DNA of 64,000 nucleotides from an uncultured Dehalococcoidia bacterium (GTDB taxonomy: Bacteria; Chloroflexota; Dehalococcoidia; Lucifugimonadales; UBA3495): positions 789,416 to 853,415 of the forward strand of contig OY282494.1 of assembly GCA_958296385.1 (NCBI GenBank). Direction: 5' to 3'. Both the position numbers and the translations under genes were made by a program. Below the pieces are notes generated by a model. The model was given only the letters and a program-made list of their open reading frames with translations, had not been told where the DNA came from and did no database searches. This document shows positions 8,577 to 21,946 of this stretch, piece by piece (positions within the stretch are counted from its first letter, which is position 1; each line of letters begins with the position of its first letter).

Positions 8577-9248
8577 CTAAACCTCGTATTCCTTAACGTC
8601 ATCCCCGATGATTAGCCGCGCCCCCGTCACCGACTGCACCTCGTCCGCCGTCCAGCCGGGAGCCACCTCTCGGAGTACCATTCCGGCCGGCGTCGGTTCC
8701 AGCACTGCCACGTCGGTCACCACCAGCGACACGCACCCTTTGCCGGTCAGCGGGAAATCACATTCCTGCACCACTTTGGGGTTGCCCTGGCGGTCGTTGT
8801 GCTCCATTGCGACGATTACCCGGTCGGCCCCCGCCGCCAGGTCCATCGCCCCGCCGATGTTGCCCACGCCCCGCTCCGGCAGCATCCAGTTGGCCAGGTC
8901 TCCGGTAGCCGACACCTGATGCGCCCCCAGCACCGTCGCGTCCACGTGCCCCCCGCGAATCATCGCAAACGCATCTACCGACGAGAAATAGGCCATCCCC
9001 GGCACCGGCTGCAAAAACTGCCCGCCGGCGTTAATCAGGTCAATGTCCTCGTTTCCGTCCTCCGCCAGCGGCCCGCAGTTCAGCACCCCGCTCTCGCTGT
9101 GATAAAAAACCACGCTGTCATCAGCCACGAACATTGACACCAGCGTAGGTATGCCGATGCCCAGATTGACGTAGCCGCCGGGCGGCAGTTCCCGCGCCAC
9201 CCGCATTGCGATAATCATCCGATCCAGCCGTTCTTTGTCAACCGTCAT
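8577..9248 (-). CDS. Family I CoA-transferase, B (beta) subunit
   Basis: This 223-aa protein has all the landmarks of 3-oxoacid/acyl CoA-transferase beta subunits: YVNLGIGIPTLVSMF near the N-terminus, the catalytic glutamate in FYHSESGVL, GGHVDATVLGAHQVS and VVTDVAVLE. Such enzymes move CoA between carboxylic acids through an enzyme-glutamyl-CoA thioester. It is the last gene of a run of three CoA-transferase genes and is the only one with an intact catalytic glutamate. It starts 26 bp after the fusion gene, so the three probably form one complex or operon. Confidence 0.92.
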   Translation of the reverse strand: MTVDKERLDRMIIAMRVARELPPGGYVNLGIGIPTLVSMFVADDSVVFYHSESGVLNCGPLAEDGNEDIDLINAGGQFLQPVPGMAYFSSVDAFAMIRGGHVDATVLGAHQVSATGDLANWMLPERGVGNIGGAMDLAAGADRVIVAMEHNDRQGNPKVVQECDFPLTGKGCVSLVVTDVAVLEPTPAGMVLREVAPGWTADEVQSVTGARLIIGDDVKEYEV

Positions 9249-9274
9249 TTCTGCGTCAGGCTCCGTCCATTTAT

Positions 9275-10600
9275 CTATTCGTAGCCGCTGAACCCGTCCG
9301 GCCGTTTCACGATGCGCTGCACGAAAACGCCGGGGGTAACTATCTCCTCCGGGTTCAACTCTCCCGCCGCAACTATTTCGTCAACCTCCGCTACCGTTAT
9401 CCGGGCCGCCGGCGCCATCACCGCGTTAAAGTTGCGGGAGGTTCCCCGGTACACCAGATTACCCCGCTCATCCGCCCGATGCGCCCTGATGATAGCGTAG
9501 TCGGCCCGCAGCCCGTACTCCAGGATGTACTCCCGCCCGTCGATAGTGCGCGATTCCTTGCCCTCGCTGATTAGCGTTCCGGCGCCCGTTGGCGTGTAAA
9601 AGGCCAAAACGCCGGCGCCTCCCGCCCGCAGCCGCTCCGCCAGCGTCCCCTGCGGCACCAGCTCCAGCTCAACCTCCCCCCGCCGGTAAGCCAGCTCAAA
9701 CTCAGACGGACGCGACACCGACGGCGACACCGGAAACGACGCTATCGCCTTGGCGACTTGCCCGTTCTCGATAAGCACGCTGTGGTCAATAGCCGTCCGC
9801 CCCGGCGGCGTGCCAAAGCTGACGACACGCGCAATCCCGGCAGTATTACTCACAATCGTAAGTCCCCGACTGCCCAAATCCCGCAGCGCCACCAGCAAAT
9901 AATGCGCCATCCCCCCCGGCCCGCCAAACCCGTCAATAAAAACCGTAGCCCCATCCGGCAAATCCGCAACAGCCCCCACCCCGTCAGAATAAACCTTGCT
10001 TACCGCATCCCCCGACGGCGCCGCAAGGTCAATCCGGCGCAATGCTGGAGACACGCTGAGGGATACCCCGGCCATCGCCTGCAAGTCGGCAGCCGTCCAT
10101 CCCGGCGCCGTTTCCGTAAGCACAAACTGGCCGCCCGCGACATTGATAACGCCCACGTCGCAAATAACGGTGTCAACGCAGTTAACACCGTCGGCCGGCA
10201 GCGACAGCGACTCGGCCAGATTAAGAACTCCATCCCGGCCGGCATTAGGCAGCAACGCCACCACCCGCTGCGCTCCGGATGACAAATCCACCGCGTTACC
10301 CGGAATACTCAAACCGCTGGCAGACTGCGCGCCGGCAATACTCCCGTTCCGGTCAACCTGCCCGGCTTCAATAACCGCCAGGTCAATATAGCCCCCCCGC
10401 GCGATCGCCGCCGCATCCGCAACGCTCAGCGGCGCCCCGTCCATCAGCCCGGCATCGCTCAGTGCCCAGACGCCCAAACTCCCCGGCAAAGCCGCCCGTA
10501 TCCGGTCAGCCCATACCCCGCTTGCGGCAACCACGCTGCCGGGCCGCGCCTCCCGCACGATGCGACGGGTGATTTCACCAACGCTTAACGCAGCCGCCAT
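9275..10600 (-). CDS. CoA-transferase fusion: degenerate B domain joined to an A domain
   Basis: This is a single open frame of about 440 aa. Its first 200 residues resemble a beta subunit (IARGGYIDLAVIEAGQVDRNG, TVICDVGVINVAGGQFVLTE), but the active-site segment reads LSDAGLM where the neighbouring B subunit has SESGVL, so Glu is replaced by Asp and nearby residues are lost. From about residue 205 it is a complete alpha subunit (KVYSDGVGAVADLPDGATVFIDGFGG, LELVPQGTLAERLRAGGAG). Normal fusions of this family run A then B. The ATG at 10600 abuts the previous stop; a TTG at 10621 is an alternative. Confidence 0.85.
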   Translation of the reverse strand: MAAALSVGEITRRIVREARPGSVVAASGVWADRIRAALPGSLGVWALSDAGLMDGAPLSVADAAAIARGGYIDLAVIEAGQVDRNGSIAGAQSASGLSIPGNAVDLSSGAQRVVALLPNAGRDGVLNLAESLSLPADGVNCVDTVICDVGVINVAGGQFVLTETAPGWTAADLQAMAGVSLSVSPALRRIDLAAPSGDAVSKVYSDGVGAVADLPDGATVFIDGFGGPGGMAHYLLVALRDLGSRGLTIVSNTAGIARVVSFGTPPGRTAIDHSVLIENGQVAKAIASFPVSPSVSRPSEFELAYRRGEVELELVPQGTLAERLRAGGAGVLAFYTPTGAGTLISEGKESRTIDGREYILEYGLRADYAIIRAHRADERGNLVYRGTSRNFNAVMAPAARITVAEVDEIVAAGELNPEEIVTPGVFVQRIVKRPDGFSGYE

Positions 10601-10601
10601 A

Positions 10602-11294
10602 TCAGCCCCCCATCCCGTCAATCATCACCGACTGCACCACCCGGTTAACAAATATCCCCGGCGTAATCACCAGTTCCGGGTCAATGTTACCGGCTTCCTC
10701 AACCCGATCCGCCTGCACGATAGTAAGCCGGGCCGACGCCGCCATCGTATGATTCCAACCCCGCTGCACGCCCCGGTAAGTCAGATTGCCCATCGTGTCG
10801 GCAGCGGCTGCCCGCAGCAAAGCCACGTCCGCGCGCAGCGGCGATTCCAGCACGCACTCCGTACCGTTGATAACCTTTGTCTCCTTTCCCTGAGCAAAAC
10901 GCGTCCCAATTCCCACCGGCACGAACACCCCGCCGATGCCAGCCCCGCCCGCCCGCAGCCGCTCCGCCAGCGTCCCTTGCGGAACCAACTCAATCTCCAA
11001 ATCCCCCGACTCCCAAAGCCGCCGCACGTCGCCGCCATCATCGCCCGGAAACGGATTAGACGACACCAGCCTGGCAACCCGCCCGGCCCGAATCAACTCA
11101 ATCAGCCCATCCGCCCCATCCCAGCGCGCGAAATCGCAGATGCCGGTCAACCCTCGAACCCCGCCGGCCAGCACCGCCGCCAGCAACTCGGCCGGCGCAT
11201 CGTCCGACGCCGTTCCTCCGATAAGCAAGGTTGCGCCATCCCGCACATCCGAAACGGCGGCGGCCGCGCTTTCATATACTTTTGAGAATGCCAT
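10602..11294 (-). CDS. Family I CoA-transferase, A (alpha) subunit
   Basis: This 230-aa protein is a CoA-transferase alpha subunit: FSKVYESAAAAVSDVRDGATLLIGGTA at the N-terminus, ELVPQGTLAERLRAGGAGIGGVF in the middle and ELVITPGIFVNRVV near the end. It shares a nearly identical central block with the A half of the adjacent fusion, so the two are paralogues. It is the first gene of the three-gene set, and its stop overlaps the start region of the fusion. It is divergent from the crotonase gene at 11348. Confidence 0.9.
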   Translation of the reverse strand: MAFSKVYESAAAAVSDVRDGATLLIGGTASDDAPAELLAAVLAGGVRGLTGICDFARWDGADGLIELIRAGRVARLVSSNPFPGDDGGDVRRLWESGDLEIELVPQGTLAERLRAGGAGIGGVFVPVGIGTRFAQGKETKVINGTECVLESPLRADVALLRAAAADTMGNLTYRGVQRGWNHTMAASARLTIVQADRVEEAGNIDPELVITPGIFVNRVVQSVMIDGMGG

Positions 11295-11347: not shown

Positions 11348-12220
11348 TTGCCCGCCGCCCTTGTCAACTGCCAACGCCCGGATTACCATTCATTATCCCC
11401 TCATCCCCTCTATACTCTCGCACCCGGACGGCCCGCTATCCATTATCTCCACATCCATTGCGCTTGCGCCCCTCCCACGGCAACCATCGCAATCAAAGCA
11501 GCCGCGCGCACGCCAACCATCAACCCGGCAACTGCTGCGGAGTTGCGGGAGTGTTGCGCTGAACTGGCGTTGCAGGATGACTTGGCGGTAGTCGTCATCA
11601 CCGGCGCCGCCGACTTGTTTGCAATGGGGCGGGCCCGGCCGCCGGCGGAAGTAAGCGATGGGCCCATGCCGGAGCGGATTGCCTGGCTTGACTCCATGCG
11701 CGCCGCCCAATCGGTTGCCGCTCTGCCCATGCCCGTAATCGCCGCGCTAAACGGGGATGCCACCGGCCACGGCCTTGAAATCGCCCTGGCCGCCGACCTG
11801 CGCGTGGCCTCCGAATCTGCCCGCATCGGCGCCGGCAGCCTCAGCGAAATGGGCTTTCCCTTTGACGGGGCCACGCAGCGCCTGCCTAGACTCATCGGCC
11901 CGGCTTTCGCCCGCGATTTGCTATTCACCGGACGCCTGCTGTCAGCCCACGAAGCGCATCAAATCGGACTGGTCAACCGCGTCGTCCCCCCCGCCGAACT
12001 CAACAACGCCGTGTCCGCACTGGCCGCCGCAATCGCCGGCGCAGCACCCCTGGCCAGCCGGTTCGTGAAAGAGGCTACGCTGGCCGCCGGCGATTTAACA
12101 CTGGAGCAAGGCTTGCGTCTGGAAGCCGACCTCAGCATCATCCTGCAAAGCACCGCAGACCGCGCCGAAGGATTGCAGGCTTTTCGGGATAAACGTTCGC
12201 CCCAATTCTCCGGCCGGTAG
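11348..12220 (+). CDS. Enoyl-CoA hydratase/isomerase-like protein with altered active site
   Basis: This is a crotonase-fold protein: the second oxyanion-hole strand is clear in ATGHGLEIALAADLRVASES, followed by GATQRLPRLIGPAFARDLLFTGRLLSAHEAHQIGLVNRVV. The first oxyanion segment, normally FCAGAD, reads LFAMGRARPP, so typical hydratase activity is doubtful. The N-terminus is uncertain: the TTG at 11348 is the most upstream start, no ATG exists before the core, and the first 45 residues look unlike coding sequence. It may be a decaying paralogue of the crotonase at 12817. Confidence 0.75.
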   Translation: MPAALVNCQRPDYHSLSPHPLYTLAPGRPAIHYLHIHCACAPPTATIAIKAAARTPTINPATAAELRECCAELALQDDLAVVVITGAADLFAMGRARPPAEVSDGPMPERIAWLDSMRAAQSVAALPMPVIAALNGDATGHGLEIALAADLRVASESARIGAGSLSEMGFPFDGATQRLPRLIGPAFARDLLFTGRLLSAHEAHQIGLVNRVVPPAELNNAVSALAAAIAGAAPLASRFVKEATLAAGDLTLEQGLRLEADLSIILQSTADRAEGLQAFRDKRSPQFSGR

Positions 12221-12249
12221 GTTATATTCCGTATGATGGTTTTTGCAAG

Positions 12250-12792
12250 ATGACGGTCAAGCTGGACATACACACTCACGTTGGCGAGATGTTTGGGTTT
12301 CAGACGCCAACCCCCGAGATTGCCGAAACGGTGATTACGCAAATCCGCGCCGCCGGGCTTGACGGCATCGCCGTAACCGACCACTGGCGTCCGGATTGGG
12401 GGCTGGAGCTGTACCGCGTCATCGAGCGGCATTTCCCCAACCAGGTCATCATCATCCCCGGACAGGAAATTGACGTCCGGCCGGCCCGCAGCCCTTTTGA
12501 CGAATACCACTGCACCGAGCTGTATCTGCCCGGAGGCCGCCTGTTCCGCACCTACTGCCATCCGGGCTACTACACGCCCAACATCATCATCGAGGACGAC
12601 ATTCACGGCATCGAGATTGCCAACTCTCACCACAACTGGCACATCCGCCGCGCCCAGGCGGAACAGGTTGCCGAGGCCCACGGCCTGCTCACTTTCAGCG
12701 TCAGCGACGCCAACACTCTGGGCGAAATCGGCGCCGGCAGTACCAACGTTGACCTTGACGATATGCTCCGCCGGGCCATCCCGCTGGATTAG
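12250..12792 (+). CDS. PHP-domain metal-dependent hydrolase
   Basis: This 180-aa protein has the metal-binding motifs of the PHP (polymerase and histidinol phosphatase) fold in order: LDIHTH, AVTDHW, IIPGQEID, YCHPGYY and SHHNWH. It probably hydrolyses a phosphoester with two or three metal ions, but its substrate cannot be read. It lies between two crotonase genes in a plus-strand run with 29-bp and 24-bp gaps, which suggests cotranscription without explaining its part in acyl-CoA metabolism. Confidence 0.85.
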   Translation: MTVKLDIHTHVGEMFGFQTPTPEIAETVITQIRAAGLDGIAVTDHWRPDWGLELYRVIERHFPNQVIIIPGQEIDVRPARSPFDEYHCTELYLPGGRLFRTYCHPGYYTPNIIIEDDIHGIEIANSHHNWHIRRAQAEQVAEAHGLLTFSVSDANTLGEIGAGSTNVDLDDMLRRAIPLD

Positions 12793-12816
12793 CGTCCAGG
12801 CCGGAGCCGGTTCCAA

Positions 12817-13569
12817 ATGACCGCCAACTTTGCCACCATCCGGTACGAGAAAGCCGGCGCCGTTGCCGGCCTTTCCCTGAACCGCCCGCAGCAGCTCAAC
12901 GCCTACTCGGTGGCGATGCGCGATGATTTTGCCGAGGTTTTGTCCGCCATCGCCGACGACCCCGACGTGCGCGCGCTGCTCATCTACGGGCAAGGCCGCG
13001 CTTTTTGCGCCGGCGCCGACTTGACCGAGTTTGGGACGGCGCCCTCGCAAGTGATTGCCCGCCGGGTGCGCTGGCAGCGGGATGTTTGGGGGCAGTTGCT
13101 TAGCCTGCCCAAGCCAATTGTGGCCGCCGTACACGGCTATTGCATCGGCTCCGGGCTGGAGATTGCGTTGCTGTGCGATGTCCGCATCGCCGCCGAGTCC
13201 ACCGTGTTTGCCATGCCGGAGACGCGGTTGGGGATGATACCGGCGGCCGGCGGCAGTCAAACCCTGCCCCGCAGCGCCGGCCCGTCGGCGGCCCTTGACC
13301 TGATGCTCACCGGCCGGCGGTTTGGCGCGGCGGAGGCCCGGCGCTGCGGCCTGGTCAGCCGCATCGTGCCGGATGACTGCCTGCACGATACCGGCTGGCG
13401 GATTGCCGGCGAACTGGCCGCTTTGCCCGCTGCTGCCGCCGCCGCCATGCGCTCCGCGCTGGCACGGGGCGCAGACTTGCCGCTGGATGAAGCCCTGTCC
13501 TATGAGCGACACTTGGCCGCTACTCTTATGGACGGCGTAATTACGCCCTCTGTTGCGGAGACCCGATGA
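12817..13569 (+). CDS. Enoyl-CoA hydratase/isomerase family protein
   Basis: This is a canonical 250-aa crotonase. It has LNRPQQLNAYS, the first oxyanion segment AFCAGADLTEFG, the second YCIGSGLEIALLCDVRIAAE, and AMPETRLGMIPAAGGSQTLPR with Glu in the usual catalytic region. The reaction is probably hydration, isomerisation or hydrolysis of an unsaturated or branched acyl-CoA. Its stop overlaps the ATG of the acyl-CoA ligase by 4 bp, showing translational coupling. Confidence 0.93.
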   Translation: MTANFATIRYEKAGAVAGLSLNRPQQLNAYSVAMRDDFAEVLSAIADDPDVRALLIYGQGRAFCAGADLTEFGTAPSQVIARRVRWQRDVWGQLLSLPKPIVAAVHGYCIGSGLEIALLCDVRIAAESTVFAMPETRLGMIPAAGGSQTLPRSAGPSAALDLMLTGRRFGAAEARRCGLVSRIVPDDCLHDTGWRIAGELAALPAAAAAAMRSALARGADLPLDEALSYERHLAATLMDGVITPSVAETR

Positions 13570-15158
13570 ACACCACTGAATTTCTGATGATTGCGTCGGC
13601 CATTGTCCCCGACCGCACCGCCATCATCTACGACGGGCAGCGTTTCACCTTTCAGGATTTGCAGGAGCGGGCCAACCGGCTGGCTGACGCTATGGCCCAA
13701 ATGAGCATCGGCCCTGGCGACCGGGTGGCTGCGATGCAGACCAACTGCAACCAGCTGCTGGAAATCTACTTCGCCGCCGCCCAGCTTGACGCCATCTACG
13801 TGCCGATAAACTTTCGCGCCAAAGAGGACGAACTCGCTACGATGCTGCGGATTGCCGAGCCGAACCTGCTGTTCCTCGGCGAACGCTACGCTCCCCTGGC
13901 GCCGGCTGACGGCTCCATCCCGGATAGCCGCATCGTCATACTGGACGCTGCCGCACCGGGCGGCCGGCTATCAGACGGCCGGCTGTCTTACGATGTCCTG
14001 CTGTCCACCGGCGAACCGGAGCAGCTGCATTTTCCGGAGGACGATGAGGACGCTACGACGGTTATTATGTTCACCTCCGGCACCACCAGCGTGCCTAAGG
14101 GCGTGCAGCTTACTCACGACAGCTTTGGCACTTTCCTGCTGACCAACGTTGCGCCGGCCGACCCGGACGTTGCGGAAAGCAACCTGCTCACGGTTCCCCT
14201 GTACCACGTGGCCGGGCTGCAAGCGGCGCTGGCCGCCGTGTTTGGCGGGCGCACTCTGGTAGTGATGCCGCAGTTTGACCCGGTGGGCTGGATGTCGCTG
14301 GTTGCCGAGCATCGCGTGAACCGGGCTATGCTGGTGCCGACTATGCTGAAACGGGTAATGGACCATCCCGGCTTTGCCGATTACGATTTGTCGTCGCTGG
14401 ACGTCATTACCTACGGGGCGGCGCCGATGCCGCTGCCCGTCATCCGGCAGGCCATCGCCGCCTTTCCCAAAGCCCGTTTTATTAACGCTTTCGGGCAAAC
14501 CGAAACCGCATCTACCATCACCATGCTCCCGCCGGAAGACCACATTTTGGACGGCACGCCGGAGGAGATTGAGGCGAAACTCAAACGGCTGTCGTCAATC
14601 GGCAAGCCGCTGGATGACGTGGAGGTGATGATAGTTGCCGAGGATGGCGCGCCGCTGCCCGCCGGCGAGGTGGGCGAGATAGTGGCCCGCGGCCCGCGTT
14701 TGATGAGCGGCTACTGGCGGCAGGACGACGCCACGGCGGAAACCGTCCGCTCCGGCTGGCTGTACACCGGCGATTTGGCGTGGCAGGATGCTGACGGCTA
14801 CATCTATCTGGCCGGCCGCGCCCGCGATTTCATCAAGCGCGGCGGCGAAATGATTTCACCCGAAGAGGTCGAGCAAATCCTGATGGAACATCCTGACGTG
14901 GACGATGCCGCCGTCATCGGAATACCCGACCTGGAATGGGGCGAGGAAGTCCGCGCGGTCGTCGTGCGACGGGATGAACTGCGGGGTGAATCGGTGGACG
15001 AAGCCGCCGTAATGGAGTTCTGCCGGCAGCGTCTGGCGGGCTACAAACGCCCCCGCTCGGTGGTGTTCGTTGACGCTCTGCCGCGCAACGTGATGGGCAA
15101 GGTCATGAAACGGGACCTGCGCGACGAGTTTGGCTACCCGGTGGGCGAAGGCCAGTAA
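13566..15158 (+). CDS. Acyl-CoA synthetase (AMP-forming)
   Basis: This 530-aa ANL-family ligase activates a carboxylic acid through an acyl-adenylate to its CoA thioester. The P-loop (MFTSGTTSVPKGVQL), INAFGQTETAS, YTGDLAWQDADGYIYLAGR, the hinge RDFIKRGGEMISPEEVE and the C-terminal lysine in RNVMGKVMKRDL are all present. It is coupled to the upstream crotonase by an ATGA overlap. The acid substrate is unknown. The order crotonase, ligase, reductase suggests breakdown of an organic acid. Confidence 0.94.
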   Translation: MNTTEFLMIASAIVPDRTAIIYDGQRFTFQDLQERANRLADAMAQMSIGPGDRVAAMQTNCNQLLEIYFAAAQLDAIYVPINFRAKEDELATMLRIAEPNLLFLGERYAPLAPADGSIPDSRIVILDAAAPGGRLSDGRLSYDVLLSTGEPEQLHFPEDDEDATTVIMFTSGTTSVPKGVQLTHDSFGTFLLTNVAPADPDVAESNLLTVPLYHVAGLQAALAAVFGGRTLVVMPQFDPVGWMSLVAEHRVNRAMLVPTMLKRVMDHPGFADYDLSSLDVITYGAAPMPLPVIRQAIAAFPKARFINAFGQTETASTITMLPPEDHILDGTPEEIEAKLKRLSSIGKPLDDVEVMIVAEDGAPLPAGEVGEIVARGPRLMSGYWRQDDATAETVRSGWLYTGDLAWQDADGYIYLAGRARDFIKRGGEMISPEEVEQILMEHPDVDDAAVIGIPDLEWGEEVRAVVVRRDELRGESVDEAAVMEFCRQRLAGYKRPRSVVFVDALPRNVMGKVMKRDLRDEFGYPVGEGQ

Positions 15159-15184
15159 GCGACGATGCGAATGGTGAACCGAAA

Positions 15185-16120
15185 ATGAAAATTGCTGTGA
15201 TGGGAACCGGCGGCGTGGGCGGCTATTTTGGCGGGCTGCTGGCCCGCGACGGCCACGACGTGACTTTTATCGCGCGGGGCGCTCATCTTGAGGCTATCCG
15301 GCGCAGCGGCCTGCGGGTGGAAAGCGTCAACGACGGGGAGTTCGCCGCTACCGGCGCGGCTACTAATGAACCAAGCACGGCCGGCGTTCAGGATTTGGTG
15401 CTGTTCACGGTCAAGATGTACGACAACGCTGACGCAATCAGGCTAATCGCCCCGCTGGTGGGCGACGATACTATTATCCTGACTTTGCAAAACGGCATTG
15501 ACAACGGCGACAGTCTGGCGGCGGCTTACGGGGCGGGGCGGGTGATGATTGGGTCGGCTTATATGGAGGGGCGTATCAGCGAACCCGGCGTGGTGACGCA
15601 GGGCGGGCCGGGCGCGGCGTCGTTTGGGGAACGCACGCTGGGCGTTACGGAACGCGGGCGGCGGTTGCTGGCGGTTTTCCAGAGCGCCGGCTGGCGGGTG
15701 GAGCTGCTGGAGAATATGACCGGGATGCTGTGGAAGAAGTTTGCCTATCTTTCCGGGTCGGCCGGGGTGTGCGCCGCCAGCGGGTGCGCTTACGGCGAAC
15801 TCCGCACCGTTCCGGAAACGCGGGCTACCATCCGGGCCGCCATCGCCGAGGCATTGGCCGTTGGCGAGGCGGCCGGGGCGCCCATCGAACCCGACTCTCT
15901 GGACTGGTCGATGGCGGCGCTGGACAACTTTCCGGCTACCGGAATGGCATCGCTGGCCAAGGACTTCGCCGAGGGCCGGCCCGTCGAACTGGAGGGGTTG
16001 ACCGGCGTAGTCATTGCGATGGGGCGCAATCTGAACGTCCCTACTCCGGTCAACGATGCGCTTTACGGCGTGCTGAAACCCCGGGCCAACCGCATTTGGG
16101 CCGAACTGGCCGGCGGGTAA
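15185..16120 (+). CDS. Ketopantoate reductase family protein
   Basis: This 311-aa NADPH-dependent enzyme has the Rossmann motif MGTGGVGGYFGGLLARDG, the active-site LTLQNGIDN, the catalytic lysine in LWKKFAYLSGSAG and SMAALDNFPATGMASLAKDF with Glu in VELEGLTG. PanE reduces 2-dehydropantoate to pantoate for CoA synthesis. Many PanE-like paralogues act on other 2-oxo acids, and the position behind an acyl-CoA ligase in a catabolic run makes that equally likely. Confidence 0.85.
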   Translation: MKIAVMGTGGVGGYFGGLLARDGHDVTFIARGAHLEAIRRSGLRVESVNDGEFAATGAATNEPSTAGVQDLVLFTVKMYDNADAIRLIAPLVGDDTIILTLQNGIDNGDSLAAAYGAGRVMIGSAYMEGRISEPGVVTQGGPGAASFGERTLGVTERGRRLLAVFQSAGWRVELLENMTGMLWKKFAYLSGSAGVCAASGCAYGELRTVPETRATIRAAIAEALAVGEAAGAPIEPDSLDWSMAALDNFPATGMASLAKDFAEGRPVELEGLTGVVIAMGRNLNVPTPVNDALYGVLKPRANRIWAELAGG

Positions 16121-20593: not shown

Positions 20594-21946
20594 ATGGCCG
20601 GGCCGTTGCAGGGTATCCGCATCGTGGAGATGGGCCAGCTCATCGCCATACCGTCGGCGATGAAGTGGCTGGGGGACATGGGCGCGCAGGTAATCCGGCT
20701 GGAATCGGTGCAGCGGCTGGAAAGCTATCGCACCGACTCCCTGTACCACAATGAGGTTGACGGCGATTTCTGGAACCGGGGCGCCAATTTTTACGAACAG
20801 AACCGCAACAAGCTGGGCCTGACGCTGGACTTGAGCCGGGATGAGGGGCGGGCGGTGCTGCGCGACCTTATCGCCATCGCCGACGTGTTCGCCGAGAACT
20901 TTACGCCGCGCGTGGTGCGCAACTTCGGGCTGGAGTACGACAGTCTGCGGCAGATACGGCCGGACATCATAATGGTGTCGTCAACGGGATACGGGTTTGA
21001 TGGGCCGTGGGCCAACTTCGGGGCTACCGGCCCGGCTACCGAAGGGGCGGCCGGGCTGGCCTACATGACCGGGTATCCGGACGGCGGGCCGGTGATGTCG
21101 GAGATTCCTTATACCGACTACACCGCCGGGGAGCATACGGTGGCCGCCGTGATGCTGGCGCTGCTGCACCGGCTGAATACCGGGCGGGGGCAGTTTATTG
21201 ACGTATCGCAGACGCAGACTTGCAGCGCAACGGTGCCGGAGGCGCTGCTGGACTGGACGGTGAACGGGCGCATCCAGCCCCGGCAGGGCAATTCAAATCC
21301 GGCGATGTCGCCCCACGGGTGTTACCCGTGCGCCGGCGATGACCGCTGGATTGCCATTGCCGTTGACAGCGACCAGGCGTGGCAAGGGCTGTGCCGGGTG
21401 ATGGGCCGTTCCGACTGGGCCGCCGACCGGCGGTACGCCGACGTTATCAGCCGTTTGTCGCACCGGGATGAGCTGGACAGGATGCTGGCTTTTGAGACCC
21501 GGCAGCGCGACAACCACGAGCTGATGGCCGCATTGCAATCTTCCGGCATCGCCGCCGGCGCCGTTATGGACAGCAAAGACTTGCTATTCAACGAGCATCT
21601 GCGGAGCCGGGGGTTTTACGAGGTTATAGAGCATCATCCCGATACCGGGATGCCGCCGCTGCCTTACGCCAGCCGGCCGTGGAAACTGCACGGCACGCCG
21701 GCCGTTGCGCCGCAGCCGGCGCCGCTGATGGGGCAGCACAACCGGGATATACTGGCCGGCTTGCTGGGCAGAACCGACGGCGAGATTGAAACGCTGACCG
21801 CCGCCAACATCATCGGGTTTGCGCCGCTGACGCCGCGCGGGGTGCGCCGGCCATCGCTGGACGAGCAAGTGCGGCAGGGGCGGATGCAGCGTTACGAAAC
21901 CGACTACGCCGCGCAGATACGGCGGGAGTACGGCATTGGGGAGTAG
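20594..21946 (+). CDS. CaiB/BaiF (family III) CoA-transferase, catalytic partner
   Basis: This 450-aa protein is a second CaiB/BaiF enzyme, with IRIVEMGQLIAIPSAMKWLGDMGAQVIRLE at the N-terminus and DVFAENFTPRVVRNFGLEYD. The catalytic aspartate is kept in PYTDYTAGEHTVAAVMLALL. A C-terminal extension of about 50 residues after MGQHNRDIL is longer than usual. It starts 1 bp after the upstream paralogue. Acceptor and donor acids are unknown. Confidence 0.92.
   Translation: MAGPLQGIRIVEMGQLIAIPSAMKWLGDMGAQVIRLESVQRLESYRTDSLYHNEVDGDFWNRGANFYEQNRNKLGLTLDLSRDEGRAVLRDLIAIADVFAENFTPRVVRNFGLEYDSLRQIRPDIIMVSSTGYGFDGPWANFGATGPATEGAAGLAYMTGYPDGGPVMSEIPYTDYTAGEHTVAAVMLALLHRLNTGRGQFIDVSQTQTCSATVPEALLDWTVNGRIQPRQGNSNPAMSPHGCYPCAGDDRWIAIAVDSDQAWQGLCRVMGRSDWAADRRYADVISRLSHRDELDRMLAFETRQRDNHELMAALQSSGIAAGAVMDSKDLLFNEHLRSRGFYEVIEHHPDTGMPPLPYASRPWKLHGTPAVAPQPAPLMGQHNRDILAGLLGRTDGEIETLTAANIIGFAPLTPRGVRRPSLDEQVRQGRMQRYETDYAAQIRREYGIGE

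Follow-up and report, generated by a model that had tools for sequence, protein, structure and literature searches.

A reversed B-A fusion gene of marine Chloroflexota and a probable asymmetric class I CoA-transferase with one active site

Three genes on the minus strand of an uncultured Dehalococcoidia genome, a 3.3-Mb single contig, encode proteins of the 3-oxoacid (class I) CoA-transferase family that probably constitute an obligate asymmetric enzyme of the pseudo-A2B2 type, in which one active site is working and the dead half serves assembly. The genes are located at positions 8577-11294 of the window, i.e., the whole stretch of 64,000 nucleotides that was analysed, and correspond to a subunit-A paralog (A1), a fusion of a subunit-B domain with a second subunit-A domain (B1-A2), and a subunit B (B2). 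Judging from the sequences, the complex derives from SCOT-type class I CoA-transferases and would work like them. The carriers of the array are uncultured marine Chloroflexota bacteria, and the named relatives include SAR202 bins and further Chloroflexota metagenome bins.

Gene Array and Family Assignment

The components of the array are the following:
10602-11294, minus strand: A1, degenerate subunit-A paralog, 230 aa
9275-10600, minus strand: B1-A2 fusion gene, 441 aa from the ATG at 10600
9275-10621, minus strand: fusion gene from the alternative start TTG at 10621, 448 aa, which would overlap A1
10028-10600, minus strand: B1 half, degenerate subunit-B domain, fusion residues 1-191
10454-10456, minus strand: Asp49 codon of B1, at the position of the subunit B catalytic Glu; motif SDAG
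9278-10006, minus strand: A2 half, subunit-A domain, fusion residues 199-441, with all ordinary-A active-site positions present
8577-9248, minus strand: B2, putative catalytic subunit B, 223 aa
9093-9095, minus strand: Glu52 codon of B2, equivalent of the catalytic Glu46 of Thermosipho melanesiensis CtfB

The A1 stop and the fusion ATG are separated by 1 base and the fusion and B2 by 26 bases; as the start of the fusion, the ATG at 10600 is likelier than the TTG at 10621. In the genus members G007, G011, and G019 (L018:4950-7703, L022:4959-7703, and L079:496-3393) A1, B1-A2, and B2 are in one frame with single stops between them, and in most other members A1 and the fusion are in a common frame with one stop between; the genes of the window are in different frames.

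The description of the array given in the initial annotation, three same-strand genes with two A and two B-type domains, is confirmed by profiles, PDB chains, and predicted structure. A1, B2, and the C-terminal half of the fusion all score far over the cut-off of Pfam CoA_trans; in NCBIfam, A1 and the C-terminal half are assigned to subunit A, with A2 passing TIGR02429 (251 bits, cut-off 128.5), and B2 is assigned to subunit B, passing TIGR02428 (273 bits, cut-off 243.6). The N-terminal half of the fusion matches TIGR02428 (E 3.9e-20) with 72 bits, below the cut-off of 243, and the match is partial, covering profile positions 78-206 only; PDB B chains also match this half as subunit B. In the AlphaFold2 model of the fusion, built on 41 aligned fusions (mean pLDDT 87.7, pTM 0.87), residues 5-191 fit CtfB, the nearest fold of B1 (9cry_B; Z 22.6, rmsd 2.2 Å over 185 residues), and residues 201-441 fit the subunit A of B. 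subtilis (Z 29.6), in agreement with the B-then-A order attributed to the middle gene. This corrects the annotation by profile libraries, which score the fused gene as a plain subunit A; the gene probably depends on two partners.

Distribution and Conservation

The fusion is present in all 14 genomes of the genus (68-71% identical) and in 46 of the 50 genomes of the family, with 18/18 among the best ones (completeness of 90% or more, contamination of 5% or less), and it is also found in the families f12, f17, and f24 of the same order. Its frame is open, devoid of internal stops, in 46/46 matching family genomes from 17 genera, and the open frame is seen in the single-contig genomes G000, G012, G013, and G049. 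No full-length match to the fusion at E 1e-101 was found outside the order among the 393 class and 400 phylum genomes sampled.

An assembly artefact, a frameshift, or chance is ruled out by the open frame in complete chromosomes and in the 46 family genomes, and confinement of the fusion to one genome by the matches across genus, family, and order. The genome search for the same fusion and gene order, which had been suggested at the outset, has thus excluded both outcomes that would have spoken against a functional fusion, namely its presence in this genome only and a frameshift or stop between the two domains.

A1 and B2 flank the fusion, with all three genes adjacent, in 37 genomes, and nearly all genomes without the adjacent trio are cases of contig ends. 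In two single-contig genomes one gene has been relocated and is still present: in G096 B2 is 1.6 Mb away, and in G084 A1 is 12.5 kb off on the opposite strand. The parts of the array are therefore retained even when the operon is broken.

Active-Site Residues

In CtfAB of T. melanesiensis the acyl-CoA site and Glu46 belong to subunit B and the carboxylate pocket to subunit A; the CtfB variants E46A and E46S are dead and E46D makes CtfAB a hydrolase (PMC12400318). A2 and B2 have the corresponding class I features, i.e., the catalytic Glu in S-E-S/N-G, the Asn of NLGIG, and the GF/SN/PQG pocket. In particular, N28, E52, R126, and K158 are all kept in 41/41 B2 sequences, and the Asn of SNT, the Gln of PQG, and both Phe in 45/45 A2 sequences; A2 has DGFG for GGFG, likewise several single AB pairs of the order.

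B1 presents Asp49 at the catalytic Glu position, the SDAG replacement already recognized in the initial annotation, and it lacks the stretch of approximately 30 residues found after this position in ordinary B subunits. Within the genus this position is occupied by D, A, N, T, or P, the subsequent loop is missing, and the equivalents of N28, E52, R126, and K158 are all lost (14/14). With the catalytic Glu gone and the following stretch missing, B1 has presumably lost catalysis, as had been proposed. The idea of a single dead B domain did not hold, since A1 is also degenerated, in step with B1: in the genus its Asn and both Phe positions are lost (14/14), and in the window GGFG is changed to GGTA, the Asn of SNxAG to Asp, and RNFN to RGWN, with PQG and LAER kept (overall, 28/39 A1 sequences have the PQG Gln and 39/39 the LAER Glu). 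Across most of the family, Glu or Asp is present in B1, but the Asn of NLGIG and the basic positions that contact CoA have disappeared; among the 24 genomes whose state is intermediate between the early one and that of the genus, B1 has Glu in 9 and Asp in 11, and some of these A1B1 halves could keep residual chemistry. In G034 (L087) A1 measures about 208 aa owing to a deletion in its second half and B1 is barely recognisable; A2 and B2 are intact.

Two equivalent catalytic protomers, typical of class I, are not found in the whole complex, as A1 and B1 of the genus are without active-site residues and the A1-B1 half lacks the catalytic Glu of subunit B. Since the active-site equivalents are intact only in A2-B2, the complex would be a pseudo-A2B2 with one active site. 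A second, different site in A1-B1, either a hydrolase (Glu to Asp) or one with chemistry like that of AibAB or IpdAB, would imply a complex that couples two reactions; this is unlikely, even if E46D converts CtfAB to a hydrolase (PMC12400318), Asp occurs at that position in 13/45 B1 domains, that of the window included, and the relatives AibAB (Cys for Glu; PMC7756340) and IpdAB (Gly for Glu; PMC5380842) are active. Against it, the residue varies within the genus and its loop is deleted, so that a conserved Asp in an otherwise intact site, as in a hydrolase-type site, is not observed; among the losses of B1 are the CoA-contact residues R126 and K158 and also Asn28, by which Asp46 is held in the structure of E46D; the pocket residues of A1 are gone as well, and no alternative conserved catalytic residue is seen in B1. 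Cys at the Glu position was found in none of the 45 B1 or 41 B2 domains. An altered A1-B1 activity is more conceivable above all in the genera keeping Glu or Asp.

Evolutionary Series and Origin

Ordinary single AB pairs, with 60-67% identity to A2, are found in other families of the order. In G097 (f18) and G102 (f20) the four genes A1-B1-A2-B2 occur in this order and unfused, with HSENG of B1 intact and the GF/N motifs of A1 kept; the stop of B1 overlaps the start of A2 by 4 nt in G102, and in G097 a gap of 4 nt lies between them, so that a small change is enough to join them. Fused forms with the B1 Glu intact are found in G081, G083, G084, and G085 (f12) and in G113 (f24). Since both unfused and fused Glu-intact forms exist, a stepwise series is preserved, from unfused intact to fused intact to degenerate, and A1 loses its own motifs along the same path as B1, while A2 and B2 keep every checked position.

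In the concatenated A+B tree the early A1B1 pairs form a clade (93/97) outside A2B2 and the single pairs of the order (99/98), and forcing A1B1 with the latter two costs 42 lnL units (AU p = 0.006); the early A1B1 branches are moderate, yet long-branch effects are possible. Tree and AU test disfavour a recent tandem duplication of one AB pair within the order, and A1B1 and A2B2 consequently resemble two paralogous pairs of older origin that were brought into tandem. The trees of the single domains give a less clear picture owing to the very fast evolution of B1. Thus, of the tandem duplication and fusion previously envisaged, the joining of the first B to the second A in an A-B-A-B ancestor is sustained by the unfused operons of G097 and G102, whereas the duplication of one AB pair is not. 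Two paralogous AB operons would have come to lie in tandem, followed by the merging of the B1 stop with the A2 start; after the fusion, A1 and B1 would have lost their active-site residues together.

Every stage seems to survive, i.e., separate AB pairs, the tandem four-gene operon, fused intact, fused with Glu or Asp, and loop-deleted forms, and therefore a question usually argued abstractly, whether a half-locking fusion permits or follows the loss of one active site, becomes testable with expressed proteins. Two class members outside the order, G276 (L151) and G285 (L152), carry arrays of three genes from the same family in the order A-A-B, through which uneven complexes could also have arisen.

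Selection and Pairing of the Domains

In 13 closer genome pairs the dN/dS values are 0.08-0.26 for A1, 0.09-0.49 for B1, 0.03-0.10 for A2, and 0.03-0.12 for B2; A1 and B1 are under purifying selection, weaker than that on A2 and B2. That A1 and B1 belong to a decaying duplicate without function is hardly credible: they evolve faster and have lost motifs, but their dN/dS is well below 1, the fusion frame is open throughout the matching family genomes (46/46, 17 genera), and parts are retained even when unlinked (B2 in G096, A1 in G084). The same purifying selection, together with the PQG Gln and LAER Glu of A1, could be ascribed to a site for regulation or substrate channelling (allosteric binding of acyl-CoA) kept by the dead half in place of a plain scaffold role; this is quite improbable, as the CoA-binding positions of B1 are lost and PQG/LAER may be structural. 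There is some, though small, chance that the pseudoenzyme AB half, tied in by the reversed fusion, has been recruited to a new function, e.g., allosteric control or selection of the substrate, along a path wholly preserved in living genomes.

The branch-rate partial rank correlations of the four domains, calculated on one topology, are 0.68 for A1-B1, a covariation that could stem from shared relaxation instead of contact, 0.39 for both A2-B2 and A1-B2, 0.31 for A1-A2, 0.01 for B1-A2, and -0.03 for B1-B2. When outliers and early forms are dropped and an A2+B2-only topology is used, they are 0.70-0.72 for A1-B1, 0.49-0.56 for A2-B2, and about 0 for B1-A2. By rates, A1 pairs with B1 and A2 with B2, and the covalently fused domains, with a correlation close to 0, are without rate co-evolution.

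The read-through of the three genes of G011 was folded as one artificial chain with stops as Gly (23 rows; pTM 0.80). In this computational device, whose domain order favours A1-B1 and A2-B2 pairing, A2+B2 fits the whole protomer of pig SCOT (3k6m_C; Z 38.1, rmsd 2.5, 424 residues). A second match, likewise with two domains, extends over A1+B1 (6mpr_B; Z 20.5, rmsd 4.0, 362 residues). The predicted structure would therefore pair A1 with B1 and A2 with B2. The covalent join of B1 and A2 and the confident two-domain arrangement of the fusion model (pTM 0.87) could instead indicate a circularly permuted protomer made of B1 and A2 from the same chain, with A1 paired to B2, resulting in two half-damaged sites or a swap; chain comparison in the structure search is sequential, so the B1-A2 interface is not readable from the fusion matches. 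Such an arrangement is very unlikely, because rate covariation is about 0 for B1-A2 and high for A1-B1 and A2-B2, and every loss is in A1 or B1 and none in A2 or B2.

Proposed Complex

According to the favoured model, the pseudo-A2B2 with one active site, A1, B1-A2, and B2 would assemble in a 1:1:1 ratio as two A-B protomers. A2 and B2 would form the only working active site, in which acyl-CoA binds in B2 and the carboxylate pocket is supplied by A2; Glu52 of B2 would form a glutamyl anhydride and then a glutamyl-CoA thioester. The reaction of class I enzymes is a ping-pong transfer of CoA between an acyl-CoA and a carboxylate. A1 and B1 would represent a catalytically dead protomer replacing the second AB half of the ordinary A2B2 tetramer and, the two halves being joined by the B1-A2 peptide bond, the active half would assemble only with the dead one, which apparently is a built-in scaffold for the working half. 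We infer complex formation, its stoichiometry, the activity of A2-B2, and the inactivity of A1-B1, which supports the A2B2-like complex with one structural half initially suggested; the substrate would be, at the class level only, of the 3-oxoacid or short-chain acyl-CoA type.

Comparison with Known CoA-Transferases

Pseudoenzyme halves within oligomers are known elsewhere; no description of an asymmetric fused CoA-transferase or of a pseudoenzyme half in CoA-transferases was found in the open-access literature searched. As in SCOT (ScoAB/PcaIJ type, class I), A2 and B2 align full-length with bacterial A and B subunits, A2 being 47% identical to 3cdk_A in the structure alignment, and A2-B2 keep the active-site Glu, Asn, and Gln. 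The known forms of SCOT are symmetric, either A2B2 or dimers of a single A-B chain; in contrast, the array described here has the B-A order, the join of two different protomers, and one degenerate protomer. CtfAB of T. melanesiensis is a heterotetramer well characterised by structure (9csc, 9cq2, 9cry), symmetric and with both halves catalytic, and its E46D and E46S variants are laboratory mutants, whereas here the predicted catalytic loss occurred naturally and only one half is affected.

IpdAB, a COCHEA-CoA hydrolase, shares the class I fold and a B subunit without the catalytic Glu (PMC5380842), but it is encoded by two genes, is about 24% identical to A2 in the structure alignment, and has no intact second B. 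The proposed analogy with IpdAB is not tenable, as IpdAB is a member of the glutaconate-CoA-transferase branch (PMC5380842) and the Glu is intact in B2; moreover, for all three proteins the matches to profiles and chains of the 3-oxoacid type are far stronger (for A1 among PDB chains, E 1e-5 with IpdA and 1e-44 with AtoD). Similarly, the 3-methylglutaconyl-CoA decarboxylase AibA/AibB has the class I fold with Glu replaced by Cys56 (PMC7756340) but consists of two genes, with every B changed and no fusion. IpdAB and AibAB are examples of this fold without the Glu, but they represent another branch and the loss affects each B subunit.

Genomic Context

A divergent block conserved in the genus (window 11348-16120) includes a crotonase-fold gene, a PHP-type hydrolase-like gene (12250-12792) without a Pfam match, a second crotonase-fold gene, and genes for an AMP-forming acyl-CoA ligase and a ketopantoate-reductase-like protein; it is likely a unit for the degradation of acyl-CoA. 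Of these, the crotonase and PHP-type genes are also encountered again in other genera. GroESL and ThiG are near the array in other genera. The neighbours of the array suggest acyl-CoA catabolism, without naming a substrate. The genome itself encodes a second, ordinary AB pair with HSENG intact (G000:C1:1542461-1543899; L002 and L005) and, therefore, does not rely exclusively on the fused complex for class I CoA transfer. A family III (CaiB-type) CoA-transferase gene is located at 20594-21946 of the window, about 9 kb from the array; an expansion of this family has been reported for SAR202 (PMC5395668).
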